Source of the DNA: Paenisporosarcina cavernae
GTDB taxonomy: Bacteria; Bacillota; Bacilli; Bacillales_A; Planococcaceae
DNA: 64,000 nucleotides
Assembly (NCBI RefSeq): GCF_003595195.1
Contig: NZ_CP032418.1
Span: 74,501 to 138,500 of the forward strand
Reading direction: 5' to 3'
Position numbers and translations under genes: made by a program. Shown here one piece after another: positions 26,244-44,380 of this stretch. How positions within the stretch are numbered: position 1 is the first letter of the stretch; each line of letters starts with the position of its first letter. Under the pieces are notes generated by a model, which was not told the origin of the DNA, made no database searches, and saw nothing but the letters and a program-made list of their open reading frames with translations.

Positions 26244-27272
26244 TTAAAGTTCTCTAAATTTCTTTAAGACGCGGGTGTTGAGAAGAATTAAAACAGTTGT
26301 GTAAACGAGAAGTCCGACAAGATATCCCCAAATGCCAGCAATTCCTTCTCCATAGACCATTACTTCTTTTATCGCAGTGGCACCATAAAAGATCGGCATC
26401 GTGTATGCTAAATAACCAAGATGGAACGGGATTAAATCGAGCGGAATTAATCCAGAGAAAAAGACTTGCGGAATAATCGTAAATGGAATCATTTGGACTA
26501 CTTGTAACTCCGAGTCAGCAAAGACGGAAATAGTCGCTCCGAAGGATACGGCCGTCACGGCTAATAACACCATCGTTAAGACAACCCATCCGATATTGCC
26601 AGCTAGTGATAAGTTCAGGACATAAATGGCGTATACCACGAGTAAGACACTCTGAATAATGGCGAAAACTCCGTATCCCATGATGTACCCGAGAATGACC
26701 TCTAGACGTTTGATCGGCGTCATTAATAGCCTCTCGAGTGTCCCTCCTGTTCGTTCTCGAACAAGTGCCATCGCAGATATGATAAATACTAAGAAAAAAG
26801 AGAATAATGCGAGAAATACATAGCCTAGATTGTCAAAAGTCGACTGCTCTTCATTCCCAAAAAGAAACGTACGCTTGAGATTCGCCGAAGGACTGACCTT
26901 ACTTAGAGCTTGTTGAATCGTTTGCAGCGTTTGTGTTGCTTTCGTTGATGGTTCCACAAGCGAAATGGTACCTTCTGTTGGAGAAGAAAGCGTCAGTACT
27001 GCATCGACTTGATCATATTGTTGGAGATACGTTTCTGGCGAGTTTGCTTCATCACTCGAAATCGATTCAATCGTGAGCGCTTCGTTCTGTAAGGCTTCCA
27101 CGAGTTTTGCTGGAGTAGTAGACGTGTCGATCGCGACAATAGGGATATAGTCAGAGTCACTTAATAAGAAATAGACGAGCGTTAAGATGAGCAGTGGCGC
27201 AAACAAAATCATCATAATACTCCGTTTGTCATTAAGGGTCTGAAGAATGACACGCTTCGCTAAATGGATCAT
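26244..27272 (-). CDS. ABC-2 type exporter permease (YhgE/NodJ-like fold)
   Basis: A 342-aa permease: one N-terminal helix (MMILFAPLLILTLVYFLL), an external domain of about 130 residues (IPIVAIDTSTTPAKLVEAL), then five helices that include the ABC-2 hallmark ERTGGTLERLLMTPI. Proteins of this layout export drugs, lipids or polysaccharides. Its start overlaps the ATPase stop by 4 nt, so it is coupled to that gene. Substrate unknown. Confidence 0.85.
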   Translation of the reverse strand: MIHLAKRVILQTLNDKRSIMMILFAPLLILTLVYFLLSDSDYIPIVAIDTSTTPAKLVEALQNEALTIESISSDEANSPETYLQQYDQVDAVLTLSSPTEGTISLVEPSTKATQTLQTIQQALSKVSPSANLKRTFLFGNEEQSTFDNLGYVFLALFSFFLVFIISAMALVRERTGGTLERLLMTPIKRLEVILGYIMGYGVFAIIQSVLLVVYAIYVLNLSLAGNIGWVVLTMVLLAVTAVSFGATISVFADSELQVVQMIPFTIIPQVFFSGLIPLDLIPFHLGYLAYTMPIFYGATAIKEVMVYGEGIAGIWGYLVGLLVYTTVLILLNTRVLKKFREL

Positions 27273-28000
27273 GTGACATTCCCTGCTTTCTGGTGCGAGG
27301 CAGCGGATAAAAACAGTTCTTCTATTCGACCATTTTCCGTTTTCTCCACTAACTCCGTTACACTTCCATATTCGATTAACGACCCGTTGTAAATTAATGC
27401 AGCGACGTCACATTCCAACACTTCCTCCATGACATGGGTGGAAATAATGATCGTTGTGCCGGAGTTTTTAAATGCTTGAAACTGTTGCCAAATGGTTCGA
27501 CGAAGAACCGGATCGATTCCTACTGTGGGTTCATCTAAAAACAGAAAGTCTGGTTCGTGTAATAGCGCGATCGCTAGGGATAATCGTTTTTTCATGCCCC
27601 CGGAGTAATGTTTCACCAATTTTTTTCTGTCAGCAGTTAGCTCCACCAATTGTAAGACGTGTTCGATTCGAGCTGCTAGATGTGATTTTTCCATCGCATA
27701 TAAGCCACTAAAAAAGTGTAAATTCGCTTCTGCAGATAAATCTGGATAAAGCGCATCGTTTTGTGGCATAAAACCAATCTTTTTCAGTAGTTCCATATTT
27801 GGCATTTTCGTTTCCGCAAACGAAACAGATCCCTCGTCCGCGTGCGTTGCGCCGATGATTAACCGAATTAACGTCGTTTTTCCAGATCCAGATGGACCGA
27901 GAAAACAAGTGATGTTGCCACTCGGAATGGTCAGCGAAATATCCTGAATAACAGGAACTTTGTCAAAACTCTTATGAACGTGCGATACGGTTATATCCAT
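27269..28000 (-). CDS. ABC-2 exporter ATPase
   Basis: A 243-aa ATPase of the drug-export class. Walker A GPSGSGKTT, signature YSGGMKKRLSLA, Walker B FLFLDEPTVGIDP, switch His in STHVMEE. I chose ATG 28000 since AAGGAGG lies 8 nt upstream; the frame is open to 28111, but that would run into the YCII gene. It is followed by the permease with a 4-nt overlap and preceded by the YCII gene on the same strand (gap 70 nt). Confidence 0.9.
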   Translation of the reverse strand: MDITVSHVHKSFDKVPVIQDISLTIPSGNITCFLGPSGSGKTTLIRLIIGATHADEGSVSFAETKMPNMELLKKIGFMPQNDALYPDLSAEANLHFFSGLYAMEKSHLAARIEHVLQLVELTADRKKLVKHYSGGMKKRLSLAIALLHEPDFLFLDEPTVGIDPVLRRTIWQQFQAFKNSGTTIIISTHVMEEVLECDVAALIYNGSLIEYGSVTELVEKTENGRIEELFLSAASHQKAGNVT

Positions 28001-28070
28001 AAATGGACCTCCTTGAAATGGACTAAATGGTGCATGTATTCTTACAGTCGGATCCGAGAATTCAAGAGAG

Positions 28071-28424
28071 TTATTCGTGCACTTGTCGTACTTCAATTTG
28101 TCCTTCTCCATCGCCTTGGGGATCCGGCATTTTCATAGCCCACTTAAGCGCTTCTTCTCTCGAATCCACGTCCAGTAAAATAAACCCTGCGACAATGTCG
28201 CTTGGATTTTCGAATGGCCCTTCCGTTCGAACTGGTTCCGCTCCTGGTGAAGGATAGGAAATCTTCACGCCGTTCGAACTTGGATAGAGACCTTTTGCCA
28301 TTACTCGAACCCCGGCAGCAACTAATTCCCGGTTGTATTTGGTCATAGCCTCTTGTAATTCTGCGCTTGGAAAATTCCCTGCTTCTGCATTTTTTGAGGC
28401 TTTCACCAGTATCATAAAAAGCAT
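28071..28424 (-). CDS. YCII-related (DGPF domain) protein
   Basis: A 117-aa cytoplasmic protein of the YCII/DGPF family. It opens MLFMILVKASKN and contains GPFENPSDIVAGFILLDVDSREEALKWA, where the usual DGPF reads EGPF. Family members bind small ligands as dimers; some are in sigma-factor operons. Function unknown here. I chose ATG 28424 because GGAG lies 8 nt upstream; the frame is open to 28445. It may share a promoter with the GNAT gene upstream. Confidence 0.82.
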   Translation of the reverse strand: MLFMILVKASKNAEAGNFPSAELQEAMTKYNRELVAAGVRVMAKGLYPSSNGVKISYPSPGAEPVRTEGPFENPSDIVAGFILLDVDSREEALKWAMKMPDPQGDGEGQIEVRQVHE

Positions 28425-28449
28425 CGAACATTCTCCTCTCTTCAATGGA

Positions 28450-28893
28450 TTAAAATGTGTATCGAGATACTTGCTCGTTTTCTATAAGTAAGCCGTTGAC
28501 TTCACGAAAACCGGCTTTTTCATATAGTTGTTTGGCGACCTCATTTTCGGGTTCGTACGATAACGTAATCGTTGAATGGTGGGCTTCTTTTTGCTTGCGA
28601 ATATCTTCAATGATAAGCTTTAACGCTTCTTTTCCGTATCCTTTTCCTTGATGGTGTTGGTCAATCATCATGCGGTAAATCCAGTACGACTGATCTTTTT
28701 CGTCTATTCCGAAGAGAGTAAAACCAACCATTTCATCCTCCGCAAAAATACCTTTCGCTTGGAAATGGTCCAGAAAATTTAATTGGGCAAGTGACACCAC
28801 GTTTCGTGCTACAAATGTAAGCTGGTCGTCTCTTACCTGTAAGGAAATTGCTTTTAGCCAATTATGTTTTGTGATAGTTTCAAGATATAGCAT
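28450..28893 (-). CDS. GNAT acetyltransferase, BltD/PaiA-like
   Basis: A 147-aa N-acetyltransferase. The acetyl-CoA pyrophosphate loop is the QGKGYGKEAL segment at about residues 83-92; ENEVAKQLYEKAGF is the conserved beta5-alpha4 region. Relatives in B. subtilis acetylate spermidine and spermine, so polyamine control is plausible but unproven. A second member of the same subfamily is encoded at 57333-57779. GGAGCTCGG precedes ATG 28893. Confidence 0.85.
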   Translation of the reverse strand: MLYLETITKHNWLKAISLQVRDDQLTFVARNVVSLAQLNFLDHFQAKGIFAEDEMVGFTLFGIDEKDQSYWIYRMMIDQHHQGKGYGKEALKLIIEDIRKQKEAHHSTITLSYEPENEVAKQLYEKAGFREVNGLLIENEQVSRYTF

Positions 28894-29063
28894 GATTCCG
28901 AGCTCCTTTAATCTATAAACGTAGCGAAAGTACTTTTGTAGGTATATTCTGTTTTTTGGTAGAAAAGACCTCCTTTTATTTTGAAAAAAGGTGTACCGGG
29001 CCTTACTCGCGAATCTTATAACGAATTACCGTGTTCAGCATTTTATAAAAGAGGAGATTTCAC

Positions 29064-29549
29064 ATGAAAAAAACAGGTACTTTCTTTCTATCCATCATCC
29101 TTGCAACTAGTTTGGCTGCGTGTAATGAAGAATCGACGATGTACGGAGATGTTTTTGATTACAAAGATTCGTATGTGGGGGATAACAGTTCTGTCGTCGC
29201 AATTGTCAAGACGATGCCGGGCAATGAATCGGTTGATCAAATTGCGTTAGAAACAAATGAAAAACCATATGGGATCGAGATTTCCTATAAGGAAGAAGAT
29301 ACGTTTTTGGATGAACATAAACGAGGAGAAATCATGGTTTCGAATGCAACATATCTGTATACATTAGTAAAAAATGTCGAGATCATCACGTTTGTTTTTC
29401 CAGAAAAGGAATACCAATTGTCTAGACAAGAGGTGGAAGAATGGTATGGCCAAGAGTTAAGCGAGGTGGAAACAGAAGACCAACTTCAAACGCTTATGGA
29501 AGAAAAACTAGAGAATGAGAATGCGATTTCCGAGTTAATTCCACAATAG
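29064..29549 (+). CDS. Lipoprotein with DUF4825-like domain
   Basis: A 161-aa predicted lipoprotein, lipobox LAAC at residues 17-20. The mature part (YKDSYVGDNSSVVAIVKTMPG, then PYGIEISYKE) resembles DUF4825, which is often attached to membrane anchors in Firmicutes and may interact with envelope signalling. The C-terminal third is acidic (LSEVETEDQLQTLMEEK). GAGGAG lies about 7 nt before ATG 29064. Alone on the plus strand, with no terminator recognised directly after it. Confidence 0.65.
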   Translation: MKKTGTFFLSIILATSLAACNEESTMYGDVFDYKDSYVGDNSSVVAIVKTMPGNESVDQIALETNEKPYGIEISYKEEDTFLDEHKRGEIMVSNATYLYTLVKNVEIITFVFPEKEYQLSRQEVEEWYGQELSEVETEDQLQTLMEEKLENENAISELIPQ

Positions 29550-29668
29550 CGGTAGTCCGATAGGGAGTAAATGAGGGTTGGATACAGAATTTCAAGTGAT
29601 CCAAGCGAGGATTACCACAAAATTTGCATACACTAAAGAAGGTTGCAACTATGTATCCTTCATTCCAT

Positions 29669-29793
29669 AAAAAAAGCGGACCTACTAGAAATTACTCCCA
29701 CATTTGTTTGTGTAGAGTCTAGTCGGTACCGCTTCTATATGCTATAATTACTTAGTTATGTTCTATAATTTAAATTAGTTTATATGTATCCTT
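29669..29793 (-). ncRNA. Candidate small RNA divergent from helD
   Basis: A perfect sigma-A promoter on the minus strand (TTGACA, 17 nt, TATAAT; 29828-29800) points at a strong intrinsic terminator. The stem AAGCGG-TACC-ACTAGA...TCTAGT-GGT-CCGCTT spans 29734-29674, with inner CTC/GAG and CACA/TGTG pairs, and is followed by seven U (29675-29669). The transcript would be about 125 nt. No start codon with a ribosome site is found in it, so it looks non-coding. It overlaps the helD promoter region on the other strand. Prediction from sequence only. Confidence 0.6.
29740..29748 (+). promoter_or_regulatory. Extended -10 element, probable helD promoter
   Basis: TGCTATAAT matches the extended -10 consensus TGnTATAAT and lies about 119 nt before the helD start codon. 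A second TATAAT occurs at 29764-29769 within the inverted repeat. Confidence 0.5.
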
Positions 29794-29799
29794 ATTTTA

Positions 29800-29828
29800 A
29801 TTATAGAACAAAATTCCGGAGGTGTCAA
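29800..29828 (-). promoter_or_regulatory. Consensus sigma-A promoter on the minus strand upstream of helD
   Basis: TTGACA (29828-29823), 17-nt spacer, TATAAT (29805-29800): both hexamers match the consensus exactly. It drives transcription away from helD. Its -10 is one arm of an 11-bp inverted repeat (29760-29770 and 29799-29809). Confidence 0.72.
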
Positions 29829-29866
29829 ACATATTCTCTTCCGAGAATGAAAAAAGGGGTGGCGTA

Positions 29867-32167
29867 ATGGAGTCCAATCTACTTTTAGAACAACAGCGCG
29901 TGAGGGAAATGATGAAATTCATTCAACTGGAGATCGCGAAGCTGGAGGGAGATACCACTAAGCTGAAAGAAGATGTCATTCACATTCGAAAACATTTTTG
30001 GGATGAAGTGAGAGTGAGTACTGATTCGTTTGATGATTATATGGAAACGATTATCGGTCTACGACAAGAAGCGCAAGCATTGGCGATTCGTCAATCCACT
30101 CATCGACATGCAGGGGAACGGTTAGATGCATTAAAACGTCTACAACATATTCCTTACTTTGGTCGTATCGATTTTAAAGAGGAAGGGACGGATCAAACGG
30201 AGCCGATTTATATTGGTGTGGCGACGTTAACGGATCCATCCGGAGAAGATTTTCTTATTTACGATTGGCGTGCACCGATTGCGAGTGTTTACTATGATTA
30301 TGAACCTGGACCTGCGATGTACCGAATCCCGGACGGTGGGAACATTCAAGGAGAATTAGAAAAGAAGTGGCAATATATTATTCGTGATGGAGAGCTCGTG
30401 TCCATGTTTGATGCGGGAGTCACCATTGGCGATGAAGTACTGCAACAAGTGCTTGGTCAAGGAACGGATAAACAGATGCAATCGATTGTAGCGACGATTC
30501 AACAGGAACAAAATAGAGCCATTCGCCATGACAAAGGGAAATTGCTCATTGTGATGGGGGCAGCTGGTAGTGGAAAAACATCTGTTGCGATGCAGCGAAT
30601 TGCGTATCTTCTATATAAATACCGAGATACGGTCACGAGTGATCAAATCTTGCTCTTTTCACCTAACCCGATGTTTAGTAGCTATGTTTCGAATGTTCTT
30701 CCAGAGCTTGGGGAAGAAAATATGCAACAAGCGACATTTCAAGAGTACATGCGAGATCGTATTGACGAACAATTTAAGATGGAAACGCCGTTTGCTCAAT
30801 TAGAATATGTGCTGACTAAACGCGATTCTCCAAATTACCCTGTTAGAATCGCAGGGATGAAGTGGAAAGCATCCGTCGCATGCTTTGACTATATTCAAGA
30901 AGCGATTACCCGATTCGGAACAGAAGGAATGGCGTTCCGAGATATCCGTTTCCGTGGAAGAATACTGGTGAATAAAGACCAAATTGCGAAACGGTTTTAT
31001 TCACAGGAGTCGACGATGCGATTTGCGAATCGCTTAGAAGAAGTGCGGTTATGGTTGGAGAGTAAACTCAAAGGATTTGCGCAGAATGAACGGCAAAAAC
31101 CGTGGGTGCAAGAAGCGGTAGATTCCTTAGATAATGCGCAGTTTTACGAAGCTCAAGTCGCACTTGCGAAGCAAAAAGGGCTACGTGGGGATGACGTGTC
31201 AGACGTCGAAGTGGATGAGAAGGATCTTGCCAGATTAATTGTGCAGCGGCGAATGAACCCAGTTGTAAAGGCAGTGCATTCCTATGATTTCGTGGACTGG
31301 ACCGGCCTTTATTGTCAATTATTTGATGTCCAATCTAATGGGAATGTGACGTTGCCAAAAGAATGGAAAGCGATTGGAGCGATGACAAAGAAAACGCTTG
31401 ATCGTGGACATATTTTTTACGAAGATGCAACACCGTTCATTTATTTAAAAGAAGCCATGCTTGGATTTGCATCAAACCGTTCGATTAAGCATGTCGTGGT
31501 AGATGAAGCGCAGGATTATTCACCGTTTCAATTTGCATTTTTAAAGCAGTTATTTCCCTCTGCGAGAATGACGGTGTTAGGCGACTTTAATCAGTCGATT
31601 TTTTCTCATTCACAAGATTCGAATGAATTTTCGTTATTGACTACGCTTTTTGGCGAAGAAGAGACGTCAAGTATTCACTTAGCGAAAAGCTATCGCTCGA
31701 CCAAACCAATTGTAGAATTCACAAAACGACTTGTCCCGAATTCTTACCCTATCGTGCCATTTGAGCGTGATGGAAAAGAACCAGTGGTAGAAGAGTTTAC
31801 GTCGAAAACTACGCTTCATGCAAAAATTGTGGCGAAAGTGAACCAGTGGAAAGAACAAGGATTCACGAGTATCGCCATCATTTGCCAATCAGCGAAAGAA
31901 AGAAAAGACGTTTCAAGCGTACTAGGAGAAACGATGGATCATGTGTTGATCACAACAAAGTCTAACGAATACGAAGAAGGTGTCGTTGTCATACCTTCTT
32001 ATTTAGCGAAAGGCATAGAGTTTGAAGCGGTTATTGTCTATAATGCATCCGATAAAGTGTATGGAGACGAAAGCTTACGTCGAACGCTTTATACGGTGTG
32101 CACTCGTGCAATGCATGAGCTTATTGTGTTTAGTTTAGGACCGAAAAGTCACTTTTTAGAAGAATAA
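29867..32167 (+). CDS. helD: HelD, RNA polymerase recycling helicase-like ATPase
   Basis: HelD is a superfamily 1 helicase-like protein that binds core RNA polymerase and releases stalled enzyme using ATP; some relatives confer rifamycin tolerance. The 766-aa protein starts with a coiled-coil arm (LLLEQQRVREMMKFIQLEIAKLEG), then SF1 motifs: Walker A GAAGSGKTS, VVDEAQDYSPFQ (Walker B), LGDFNQSI and C-terminal TVCTRAMHEL. I chose ATG 29867, with GGGGTGG just upstream; the frame is open from GTG 29822, which has GGAG only two bases before it. The leader region holds an inverted repeat and a divergent sRNA candidate. Confidence 0.92.
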   Translation: MESNLLLEQQRVREMMKFIQLEIAKLEGDTTKLKEDVIHIRKHFWDEVRVSTDSFDDYMETIIGLRQEAQALAIRQSTHRHAGERLDALKRLQHIPYFGRIDFKEEGTDQTEPIYIGVATLTDPSGEDFLIYDWRAPIASVYYDYEPGPAMYRIPDGGNIQGELEKKWQYIIRDGELVSMFDAGVTIGDEVLQQVLGQGTDKQMQSIVATIQQEQNRAIRHDKGKLLIVMGAAGSGKTSVAMQRIAYLLYKYRDTVTSDQILLFSPNPMFSSYVSNVLPELGEENMQQATFQEYMRDRIDEQFKMETPFAQLEYVLTKRDSPNYPVRIAGMKWKASVACFDYIQEAITRFGTEGMAFRDIRFRGRILVNKDQIAKRFYSQESTMRFANRLEEVRLWLESKLKGFAQNERQKPWVQEAVDSLDNAQFYEAQVALAKQKGLRGDDVSDVEVDEKDLARLIVQRRMNPVVKAVHSYDFVDWTGLYCQLFDVQSNGNVTLPKEWKAIGAMTKKTLDRGHIFYEDATPFIYLKEAMLGFASNRSIKHVVVDEAQDYSPFQFAFLKQLFPSARMTVLGDFNQSIFSHSQDSNEFSLLTTLFGEEETSSIHLAKSYRSTKPIVEFTKRLVPNSYPIVPFERDGKEPVVEEFTSKTTLHAKIVAKVNQWKEQGFTSIAIICQSAKERKDVSSVLGETMDHVLITTKSNEYEEGVVVIPSYLAKGIEFEAVIVYNASDKVYGDESLRRTLYTVCTRAMHELIVFSLGPKSHFLEE

Positions 32168-32177
32168 AGGAATAGAT

Positions 32178-32226
32178 GCTAGCTCTCTTAAGCGTTTAAA
32201 TGCGCAAGCGGGCTAGCTTTTCTTTT
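32178..32226 (+). terminator. Terminator after helD
   Basis: GCTAGC pairs with GCTAGC (inner CTTaaGCG with GCGcAAG), then TTTTCTTTT. It lies 11 nt after the helD stop. Confidence 0.88.
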
Positions 32227-32241
32227 GGAAATAAAGTATGG

Positions 32242-32261
32242 CGTTTTCGCGAGCGAAAACG
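32242..32261. repeat. CGTTTTCGC hairpin
   Basis: CGTTTTCGC and GCGAAAACG form a perfect 9-bp palindrome with a GA centre. A similar CGTTTTCG...CGAAAACG hairpin occurs twice in the duplication after hisC. Confidence 0.6.
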
Positions 32262-32337
32262 GTCCACTTGGAAGTAGGGGTTCTCAGGGTAAGTGGGGAT
32301 TTCTAGTAAGCACATCCAAAAAGTAATACAAATGGCG

Positions 32338-32434
32338 TTCTATTGGCGCGAATCCGAGCTCTATAAGCGGGACGCATCTTCCTATAAGGGCGAATTTCCG
32401 TCTATAAGCGCAAAACCCGATTCTATCAGCGCAA
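32338..32434. repeat. Array of five 21-nt repeats, TTCTATnnGCGC orientation
   Basis: The CTAT cores start at 32340, 32361, 32382, 32402 and 32423, giving a period of 20-21 nt; the unit is TTCTATAAGCGCAAA with changes. It is the reverse complement of the array at 36692-36807, and the two bracket the MarR-ABC operon. It ends 22 nt before the marR promoter. Confidence 0.8.
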
Positions 32435-32456
32435 AGAGTTTACTAACGTTTTTGTA

Positions 32457-32506
32457 TTGACAGAAAGCGAGTATAGGAGTAATTTATCTAATAGTGTTAG
32501 ATAAAT
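32457..32506 (+). promoter_or_regulatory. marR-ABC promoter with palindromic operator
   Basis: TTGACA (32457-32462), 17 nt, TAATTT (32480-32485). A perfect 10-bp inverted repeat ATTTATCTAA-N5-TTAGATAAAT (32482-32506) overlaps the -10 and covers the start site, as expected for MarR autorepression. The ribosome site GGAGG follows. Confidence 0.8.
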
Positions 32507-32521
32507 ATTGGAGGACGTAGA

Positions 32522-32944
32522 ATGAATTATTCGAAGCTTGCTGAAGAGTTAATGGAGTCAATGATTCGCGTGCGGAAATTGTCGTTAAATAAGCAACTTG
32601 ATAACGTGTCATTTGGGGAACGGAAGATTCTTGCCTATTTGCACTATCACAATAATGGAGCGACTTCTGGTGAACTGAGTGAAAAACTGGATCTTACGAC
32701 GCCGCGAGTAGCTTCCACGTTAAAAAGCTTGGAGAAAAAAGCATTTATTAAACGAGTGCAAGATCCATCAGATAAGCGTGTGGTGATTGTTACTGTGACG
32801 AAAGAAGGTCGAGAATTTGTGAAACGAGAGCGAGAGGAAGCGCAAACGGCACTTTCTTACTTGTTGCAAGAACTCGGGGAAGAGGATTCAAAAGATTTCA
32901 CGCGCATTATGAAGCGTATAGCGACAATAAAAGAATCGAGATAA
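32522..32944 (+). CDS. MarR-family repressor
   Basis: A 140-aa winged-helix regulator. GATSGELSEKLDLTTPRVASTLKSLEKKAFI forms the recognition region and DPSDKRVVIVTVT the beta wing with the conserved DxRD-like Asp-Lys-Arg. It is first in an operon with two ABC exporter genes and is preceded by a palindrome over its -10 element. It most likely represses its own operon until a drug-like ligand binds. GGAGG is 6-8 nt before ATG 32522. Confidence 0.92.
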   Translation: MNYSKLAEELMESMIRVRKLSLNKQLDNVSFGERKILAYLHYHNNGATSGELSEKLDLTTPRVASTLKSLEKKAFIKRVQDPSDKRVVIVTVTKEGREFVKREREEAQTALSYLLQELGEEDSKDFTRIMKRIATIKESR

Positions 32945-33012
32945 AACACCTTGAGTTTGGAATAAGTGGGGAGTGCTTCTCAACTAGACAAAGAGAAAGT
33001 GGGAAAACGAAA

Positions 33013-34767
33013 ATGCTGAAATTGTTATCGTATTTGCAGCGCAAAGAATGGACATTTATCGCCTTTAGTGTGATGTTCATCGTGCTACAAGTGTGGCTAG
33101 ATTTAAAACTTCCAGATTATATGTTCAAAATTACGATGCTTGTTCAAACGCCTGGAAGTGAAACGGGGGAAGTGCTAGATCAAGGGGTATTCATGCTCTT
33201 ATGTGCAATCGGTAGTATGGCAGCTGCGATTGTGACGAGCTTTTTTGCAGCTCAAGTAGCGGCTGGTTTTTCGTTGCGATTGCGCCGACTCGTGTTTGAC
33301 CGAACGTTAAGTTTTTCGATGGAGGAAATGAATCGATTCTCTACACCAAGTCTTATCACACGTTCGACGAATGATATTACGCAAGTGCAGTTACTCATTG
33401 CCACAGGGCTTCAAGTAATTGTGAAAGCACCGATTTTAGCGGTGTGGGCGATTTTTAAAATTACCGGTAAGAGCTGGGAGTGGAGTGCGGCTACTGGTGT
33501 GGCGGTTGCGCTTCTTATCGCAGTGTTACTCGTCATCGTGCTTGTCGCTTTACCGAAATTCCGAATTATTCAAACGCTTACCGATAATTTGAACCGTGTA
33601 ACTCGGGAGAATTTGTCTGGAATTCGTGTCGTACATGCCTATAATGCGGAAGGCTTTGAAGAACAAAAATTCGAAGTGGCAAATGAGGAATTGACACGCA
33701 CGAATTTGTTTACGATGCGCACAATGGCGATCCTTATGCCGACGATAGGCTTCATCATGTCGGGAATTAGTCTCGCGATTTACTGGATTGGAGCGTTTTT
33801 GATTCAAGCAGCGTCAGGACCAGAAAAACTGACGATTTTCTCGAATATGGTCGTCTTCTCTTCCTATGCAATGCAAGTAATTATGGCATTTATGATGCTG
33901 TCGATTATTTTCATTTTACTTCCACGTGCAGCGGTCTCCGCAAAACGTATCCAAGAAGTATTAGCAACAAAAGCAATGATTTTACCTGGGAATGAAGTGC
34001 AAGGTAAGCCCGGCATAAAAGGAAAAGTAGAGTTTCACAATGTGACGTTCCGTTACCCAGATGCAGCAGAAGCGATTTTAGAAAATATTAGTTTTACTGC
34101 CTCGTTAGGTGAAACGGTCGCGATCATTGGGTCAACAGGCAGTGGGAAGAGTACGCTCGTCAATTTAATTCCTCGCTTTTTCGACGTAACAGAAGGAGAG
34201 ATACTAGTTGACGGAGTAGATGTCCGGAACTATACGAAAGAGGCCCTTCATTCCAAAATAGGGTTTGTCTCACAAAAAGCGGAGTTATTCTCTGGTTCTG
34301 TGAAATCAAACGTGGCATTTGGCGATACATCGATTGAAGAAGATATGCTGAAAAAAGCGCTGGAAATTGCGCAAGCAGCTGACTTTGTAGAAAAAATGGA
34401 AGAGCGCTATGAAGCGCCTATTTCTCAAAGTGGAACGAATTTGTCGGGTGGGCAAAAGCAGCGTCTGTCAATTGCGAGAGCGATTTACAAGCAACCTGAA
34501 ATTTATGTATTTGATGATTCGTTTTCCGCGCTCGATTATAAAACGGATCGTGTATTGCGTTCGTTGTTGAAGCAAGAAATTTCAGATGCGACGTCGATTA
34601 TTGTGGCACAACGAATTGGAACGATTAAAGACGCGGACCGAATTTTAGTATTAGATGAAGGAAAACTTGTCGGCACCGGAACACACGAGGAATTAATGGA
34701 AACGTGTGACGTGTATCAAGAGATTGCATATTCGCAATTGTCGAAGGAGGAGCTCGCAAATGGCTAG
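33013..34767 (+). CDS. Heterodimeric ABC multidrug exporter subunit, BmrC/YheI-like
   Basis: A 584-aa half-transporter: six helices (residues 1-310) followed by an ATPase domain. Walker A is GSTGSGKST and the signature LSGGQKQR. After Walker B the usual catalytic Glu is Asp (YVFDDSFSALD), so this subunit forms the degenerate ATP site, as in BmrC of B. subtilis. Partner of the next gene, whose start overlaps its end. Efflux of drugs or lipids is inferred from the BmrCD-type layout and the upstream MarR gene. ATG 33013 is preceded by a weak AAAGTGGG site. Confidence 0.9.
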   Translation: MLKLLSYLQRKEWTFIAFSVMFIVLQVWLDLKLPDYMFKITMLVQTPGSETGEVLDQGVFMLLCAIGSMAAAIVTSFFAAQVAAGFSLRLRRLVFDRTLSFSMEEMNRFSTPSLITRSTNDITQVQLLIATGLQVIVKAPILAVWAIFKITGKSWEWSAATGVAVALLIAVLLVIVLVALPKFRIIQTLTDNLNRVTRENLSGIRVVHAYNAEGFEEQKFEVANEELTRTNLFTMRTMAILMPTIGFIMSGISLAIYWIGAFLIQAASGPEKLTIFSNMVVFSSYAMQVIMAFMMLSIIFILLPRAAVSAKRIQEVLATKAMILPGNEVQGKPGIKGKVEFHNVTFRYPDAAEAILENISFTASLGETVAIIGSTGSGKSTLVNLIPRFFDVTEGEILVDGVDVRNYTKEALHSKIGFVSQKAELFSGSVKSNVAFGDTSIEEDMLKKALEIAQAADFVEKMEERYEAPISQSGTNLSGGQKQRLSIARAIYKQPEIYVFDDSFSALDYKTDRVLRSLLKQEISDATSIIVAQRIGTIKDADRILVLDEGKLVGTGTHEELMETCDVYQEIAYSQLSKEELANG

Positions 34768-44054: not shown

Positions 44055-44380
44055 AAAAAAGTCCCCTGCAAATGAACAAATTGTTCATCTGCAGAGGACG
44101 GAAATACCGCGGTGCCACCTCATTTAAAAGCGTTTATCGCTTTCACTTGATGATCGATAACGGGGATCAGCCGTTTTCCCATACTCTATTCTGGGAAACT
44201 CTCCAAAGTCCATTCACGTCACGCCATCTATCAGCTTCCACCAACCGCTGACTCTCTATAAGAATGACCTTACGCTACTACTCTTTGTCGTCGATTTCTC
44301 TGCTCGTCTAAACTCTGCTCATCTGTTCTTCAGGCGATGTCGCTCCCGACACCTTCTGCCATAATCCCGAACAAAAAAGT
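44055..44380 (-). promoter_or_regulatory. T-box riboswitch, tryptophan-specific, controlling trpDCFBA
   Basis: The leader shows the universal T-box sequence AGGTGGCACCGCGG (44120-44107), a terminator hairpin with the stem GTCC...GGAC and TTTTTT (to 44055), and a stem I with the GGTTGGTGGAAGC region. The specifier lies in GTGAATGGACTTTGG, giving UGG (44212-44210), the tryptophan codon. Uncharged tRNA-Trp should stabilise the antiterminator and switch the operon on. The rest of 44020-44564 holds only the promoter and 3' ends. Confidence 0.93.

Follow-up and report, generated by a model that had tools for sequence, protein, structure and literature searches.

A putative rifampicin alarm with an unusual sense promoter upstream of helD in Paenisporosarcina cavernae

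Why should a perfect promoter lie directly ahead of helD on the opposite strand, where there is no gene for it to serve? The question is raised by a stretch of 64,000 nucleotides of Paenisporosarcina cavernae DNA, analysed here as a whole (hereafter, the window), in which helD is preceded by a plus-strand gene with a DUF4825 domain (29064–29549). The initial annotation described, in the intergenic region, a minus-strand promoter with perfect hexamers at 17-nt spacing, an RNA of ~125 nt, a strong intrinsic terminator with seven U, and no minus-strand gene in the vicinity. Each of these observations is borne out (Table 1): the minus-strand TTGACA-17-TATAAT (29828–29800) matches the consensus at 12 of 12 positions, and the predicted RNA ends in a hairpin of -27.7 kcal/mol that runs into the U tract. 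The antisense promoter is without a nearby minus-strand gene to serve, because the next one, which encodes a GNAT acetyltransferase (28893–28450), starts ~780 nt past the terminator.

Table 1. Features in and around the region upstream of helD (positions refer to the window)
Feature	Position	Strand	Basis and remarks
Antisense promoter -35, TTGACA	29823..29828	-	Sequence and promoter scans
Antisense promoter -10, TATAAT, 17-nt spacer	29800..29805	-	Sequence and scans
Predicted sense (helD) promoter, extended -10 TGCTATAAT	29740..29748	+	Pair scan; predicted start G at 29755
Sense -35 position, degenerate TAGTCG (3/6)	29720..29725	+	Inside terminator stem
Predicted antisense RNA, ~123–125 nt	29669..29793	-	Sequence and scans; predicted start 29793–29791 (AAGG), end at the U run
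Intrinsic terminator, hairpin 29735–29673 into U7 29675–29669	29669..29735	-	Fold and scan of relatives
helD (HelD_BACSU type), 766 aa	29867..32167	+	NF041464, 1021.5 bits (cut-off 419); ATG at 29867
Imperfect palindrome, 23-nt arms, 87% complementary	29756..29813		Lies in the interval separating the two predicted starts and extends over the antisense -10

No site in the 64-kb window other than the antisense promoter reaches 11 of 12 consensus matches (scan with spacers of 16–19), and dinucleotide shuffling of the entire window, repeated 20 times, produced two perfect sites in total. The simple scan of positions 27000–34000 would fit a promoter and terminator brought together by chance and without function, as promoter-like (11) and terminator-like (6) sites are no more frequent there than in shuffled sequence (14.6 and 6.4, respectively). 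This explanation is scarcely credible, given the rarity in shuffles of both a perfect promoter and a promoter pair of the quality described below, and given that 63 non-redundant loci carry the pair at the same position ahead of helD.

With the predicted helD promoter on one side and the helD gene on the other, the minus-strand promoter points at the former; the two promoters are therefore convergent, and not divergent as first annotated. Sequence places both no more than 300 bp ahead of the gene, the start codon of which was fixed by comparison with relatives. When transcription starts are placed 7 nt after each -10, the predicted start-to-start distance is 39 bp (37 bp if the antisense start is assigned to the first G). 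With a score of 23 (next place 19), this convergent pair ranks first in the window, and none as good was present in 20 shuffled windows. Under a strict rule, defined as TG before the sense -10 together with an antisense TTGAC, and applied with a low minimum score, weaker pairs are picked up at two other places in the window (scores 16–18). Counted from the sequence only, consensus matches are 12/12 for the antisense promoter vs. 9/12 plus TG for the sense promoter, and the antisense promoter is predicted to be the stronger of the pair.

An antisense promoter spotted by eye in raw sequence fits a drug-sensing circuit published in January 2026 (Sudzinova et al., Nucleic Acids Res. 2026, PMC12802891). 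As reported there, helD of B. subtilis is under two convergent promoters, the antisense promoter being the stronger and repressing helD by transcriptional interference; sub-inhibitory rifampicin relieves this repression, the level of the antisense RNA drops with the drug, and mutation of the antisense -10 renders a helD reporter highly active in drug-free conditions, with loss of rifampicin induction (PMC12802891). The same account gives starts 39 bp apart (induction is lost when 17 bp are removed from this distance), an in vivo antisense RNA of ~90 nt (~94 nt, plus a longer one, in vitro), GTP as the initiating nucleotide at both promoters, and similar sites ahead of 18,798 genes in 11,591 assemblies (PMC12802891). 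In B. subtilis, protection by HelD has also been demonstrated in published work. HelD classes and isoforms are treated elsewhere (PMC8655204). The literature matches listed include no second primary account of the circuit, and one of 2026 on rifampicin phosphorylation (PMC13099321) may mention it.

The gene downstream of the pair in the window is a class I helD, which is one of the two genes (class I helD or pps) looked for behind such an alarm, and the predicted starts are at the ~39-bp distance. The window element is very probably a helD rifampicin alarm, with a presumably weaker sense promoter facing a convergent antisense promoter of perfect consensus, and the alarm would be expected to operate in this organism. 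Without drug, polymerases from the antisense promoter would traverse the sense promoter and end at the hairpin ~125 nt on, and this antisense traffic would keep helD low. At low rifampicin, drug-bound polymerase would most likely stall at the busier antisense promoter, by which interference would stop; drug-free polymerase could then leave the sense promoter, so that HelD would be made and RNA polymerase protected. The "new control layer" proposed in the initial annotation is not new in principle, having already been published (PMC12802891), and it is in its sense promoter that the window copy is unusual.

Conservation of the pair was assessed across 85 class I helD loci, comprising 55 loci and 30 more from overlapping sets. 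A convergent pair was identified in 81 of these (absent in L068, L083, L084, and L100), and removal of near-duplicates reduced the 81 to 63 non-redundant loci. All 81 pair loci pass the strict rule, vs. 15 of 1260 shuffled upstream regions. Consensus hexamers and TG are favoured in the pair search and the distance is restricted, so that the conservation of these features is partly by construction; this applies to the antisense -35, which is TTGAC plus one base in 63/63 loci, and to the predicted start distance of 36–43 bp (37–39 bp in 56 loci; 33–46 bp allowed). In three loci (L036, L073, and L079) the best pair was 54–58 bp apart, and the usual pair was obtained when the distance was limited to 35–45 bp. 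Two further features were no part of the search: all 63 loci have G at the predicted sense start, and the antisense start region is G-rich across them. An addition to the published work is that the same layout precedes helD both in the searched family and in named Bacilli, among them Peribacillus, Anoxybacillus, and Ureibacillus. Another is that the 19-bp antisense spacer is not general: the spacer is 17 in 45 loci (the window has 17), 18 in 16, and 19 in only 2. In what the B. subtilis authors say of the 19-bp spacer, its role is a matter of speculation (PMC12802891).

The minus-strand RNA could instead be a small RNA, trans-acting or cis-antisense, that regulates through its sequence. It is short, has its own promoter, and is strongly terminated, with a hairpin that none of 200 shuffles equals in stability (z -5.27); this hairpin was not in the output of a consensus terminator scan, probably because loops were limited to 3–8. 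Sequence and folding predict here that the antisense RNA is short and stops at an intrinsic terminator, and terminator-like hairpins are enriched among relatives. Within 260 nt on the antisense strand, terminator-like hairpins of -15 kcal/mol or below are present in 35/63 loci vs. 17/378 shuffles, and at a laxer -9 kcal/mol in 45/63 loci vs. 97/378 shuffles; none was found at the laxer threshold in the other 18 loci. These hairpins differ between loci in sequence and position; in the window the strongest one starts 58 nt into the transcript, as against 87 or later in the 34 remaining loci that reach -15 kcal/mol or below. The conservation check suggested by the initial annotation therefore gives a divided result, by which the promoter is kept, and the hairpin is enriched but constant neither in its sequence nor in its distance.

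It is this inconstancy that counts against regulation through the RNA sequence, together with the low conservation of the antisense RNA past approximately +80 (0–0.5 bits per position, mostly ≤0.3, across the 63 loci) and the lack of any nucleotide match to the 169-bp region in 20 other genomes. Rfam 15 gave no match in the region at gathering thresholds, and when E values up to 1 were allowed, only SpF19 was hit, with a score no better than chance (18.6 bits vs. a gathering threshold of 60; E 0.93). On these grounds a trans-acting small RNA was rejected, and we consider the small-RNA explanation in either form very unlikely. Because the antisense RNA sequence is poorly conserved beyond the promoters and has no credible Rfam or nucleotide match, the effector is likely to be the act of transcription itself. 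Of the small RNA and the transcriptional-interference switch offered as options at the outset, it is the latter that the conserved pair at orthologues and the B. subtilis experiments (PMC12802891) support.

Several other elements of the sequence were noted. The 58-bp palindrome listed in Table 1 would put a long hairpin near the 5′ end of the helD mRNA. Across the 63 loci, the stretch between the predicted starts folds with z ≤ -2 in 17, the arms mostly starting at +1, and the mean z is -0.9, with many loci lacking a hairpin; the window's own stretch has a z of 0.8, and its palindrome extends beyond the inter-start stretch. A 5′ hairpin of the helD mRNA was thus set aside as a general element. 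A six-codon frame (MKKGVA, 29847–29867), without a clear ribosome-binding site before it, has a TAA stop that overlaps the helD ATG. Elsewhere in the window, a T-box leader is present on the minus strand (44091–44300; 142.3 bits).

The sense promoter sets the window apart from its relatives. The terminator stem overlaps the sense -35 position, at which the window alone among the 63 loci has as few as 3/6 consensus matches (4/6 in 13 loci, 5/6 in 49); it is also alone in having TATAAT as the sense -10, which is TAAATT in 40 loci. Both oddities could point to a relic, in which the pair is decaying and helD is transcribed from the extended -10 promoter without a useful response to rifampicin; a sense -10 of this strength could escape interference. 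However, decay would not predict a perfect antisense promoter, kept spacing, and a strong terminator nearby, and we regard a relic as unlikely. Under the preferred reading, that of a helD rifampicin alarm, the terminator appears to have moved into the sense promoter, for which the consensus extended -10 would compensate. Because its -35 is degenerate, the sense promoter may act unlike the slow-escape promoter of B. subtilis. The window thereby offers a natural test of the promoter property behind the alarm: if it is still rifampicin-responsive, a -35-dependent, slow-escape sense promoter would not be required, and strong antisense traffic would be enough.

The distribution of the pair among HelD genes was followed in 20 further upstream regions, of which 8 were selected from HelD proteins 51–55% identical to that of the window, and 12 belong to a divergent isoform at 41–44% identity. 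The pair is present in 8/8 of the former. For the divergent isoform, 0/14 loci pass the strict rule; these 14 (L113–L124, with L083 and L084 at 43–44%) represent every locus found at 41–44% identity, and include L116, the upstream region of which is cut by a contig end (464 bases). The lax score of 19 at L114 equals that of its best shuffle, and this locus has neither the TG nor the antisense TTGAC. Because all 14 loci are without the dual promoter by the strict rule, the divergent isoform is probably regulated differently. HelD-like paralogues (29–32% identity, including one from the genome of the window) likewise yielded 0/8 under the strict rule, fragments such as L011, L017, and L018 having been left out of this set. 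A candidate dual promoter at three paralogues (L008–L010) was rejected: best scores of 18–20 fall near one position, shuffle maxima are 19–20, and the antisense hexamer lies over the start codon region of the paralogue, in a layout that the other five of the eight do not share. The paralogue in the window's genome (L012; contig 1, 364706–366700) encodes a further HelD-like protein of 32% identity and is not preceded by the dual promoter; loci related to it have a conserved start-codon region in common, some with a possible extended -10 promoter, and a closer paralogue alignment took in 5 of the 8 loci.

As judged from upstream sequences, the circuit goes with one HelD isoform, except at two orthologue loci, L068 (only 292 upstream bases covered) and L100, where the pair is missing. 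This is a further addition to the published work, as the circuit is tied to that isoform and not to the divergent isoform or the paralogues examined. A more elaborate proposal, which we advance tentatively and at less than even confidence, is that the window holds a re-engineered alarm, in which a terminator stem takes the place of the sense -35 and a perfect extended -10 compensates, and that the circuit marks one HelD isoform (at least 51% identity, with the two exceptions) as drug-inducible, the divergent isoform and paralogues being without it. As for pps, the PPDK_N domain, which we take Pps to carry, was used as a proxy. Because a search of the window's genome for this domain was negative (the same search was positive in 13/14 control genomes, B. 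subtilis included), pps, the second B. subtilis alarm gene, appears to be absent.

Among known systems, the actinobacterial rifampicin-associated element is likewise situated ahead of rifampicin-protecting genes, helD included; compared by description only, it is a 19-bp palindrome overlapping the sense promoter (PMC12802891). The B. subtilis Ppps/Panti-pps pair is reported to work by convergent promoters in the same way, ahead of a gene for rifampicin resistance (PMC12802891); helD is the only one of the two B. subtilis alarm genes that turned up in the window's genome. The closest counterpart is B. subtilis PhelD/Panti-helD, from which the window differs in having an antisense promoter of perfect consensus with a spacer of 17 rather than 19, a sense promoter without a recognisable -35, a terminator stem over the sense -35 position, and 112 nt, rather than 98, between the predicted sense start and the ATG (PMC12802891). 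In common with PhelD/Panti-helD, the window has a class I helD downstream of convergent promoters, ~39 bp between starts, a predicted sense start at G with an antisense start rich in G, and a short, terminated antisense RNA (~90–94 nt in B. subtilis, ~125 nt as predicted for the window; PMC12802891).
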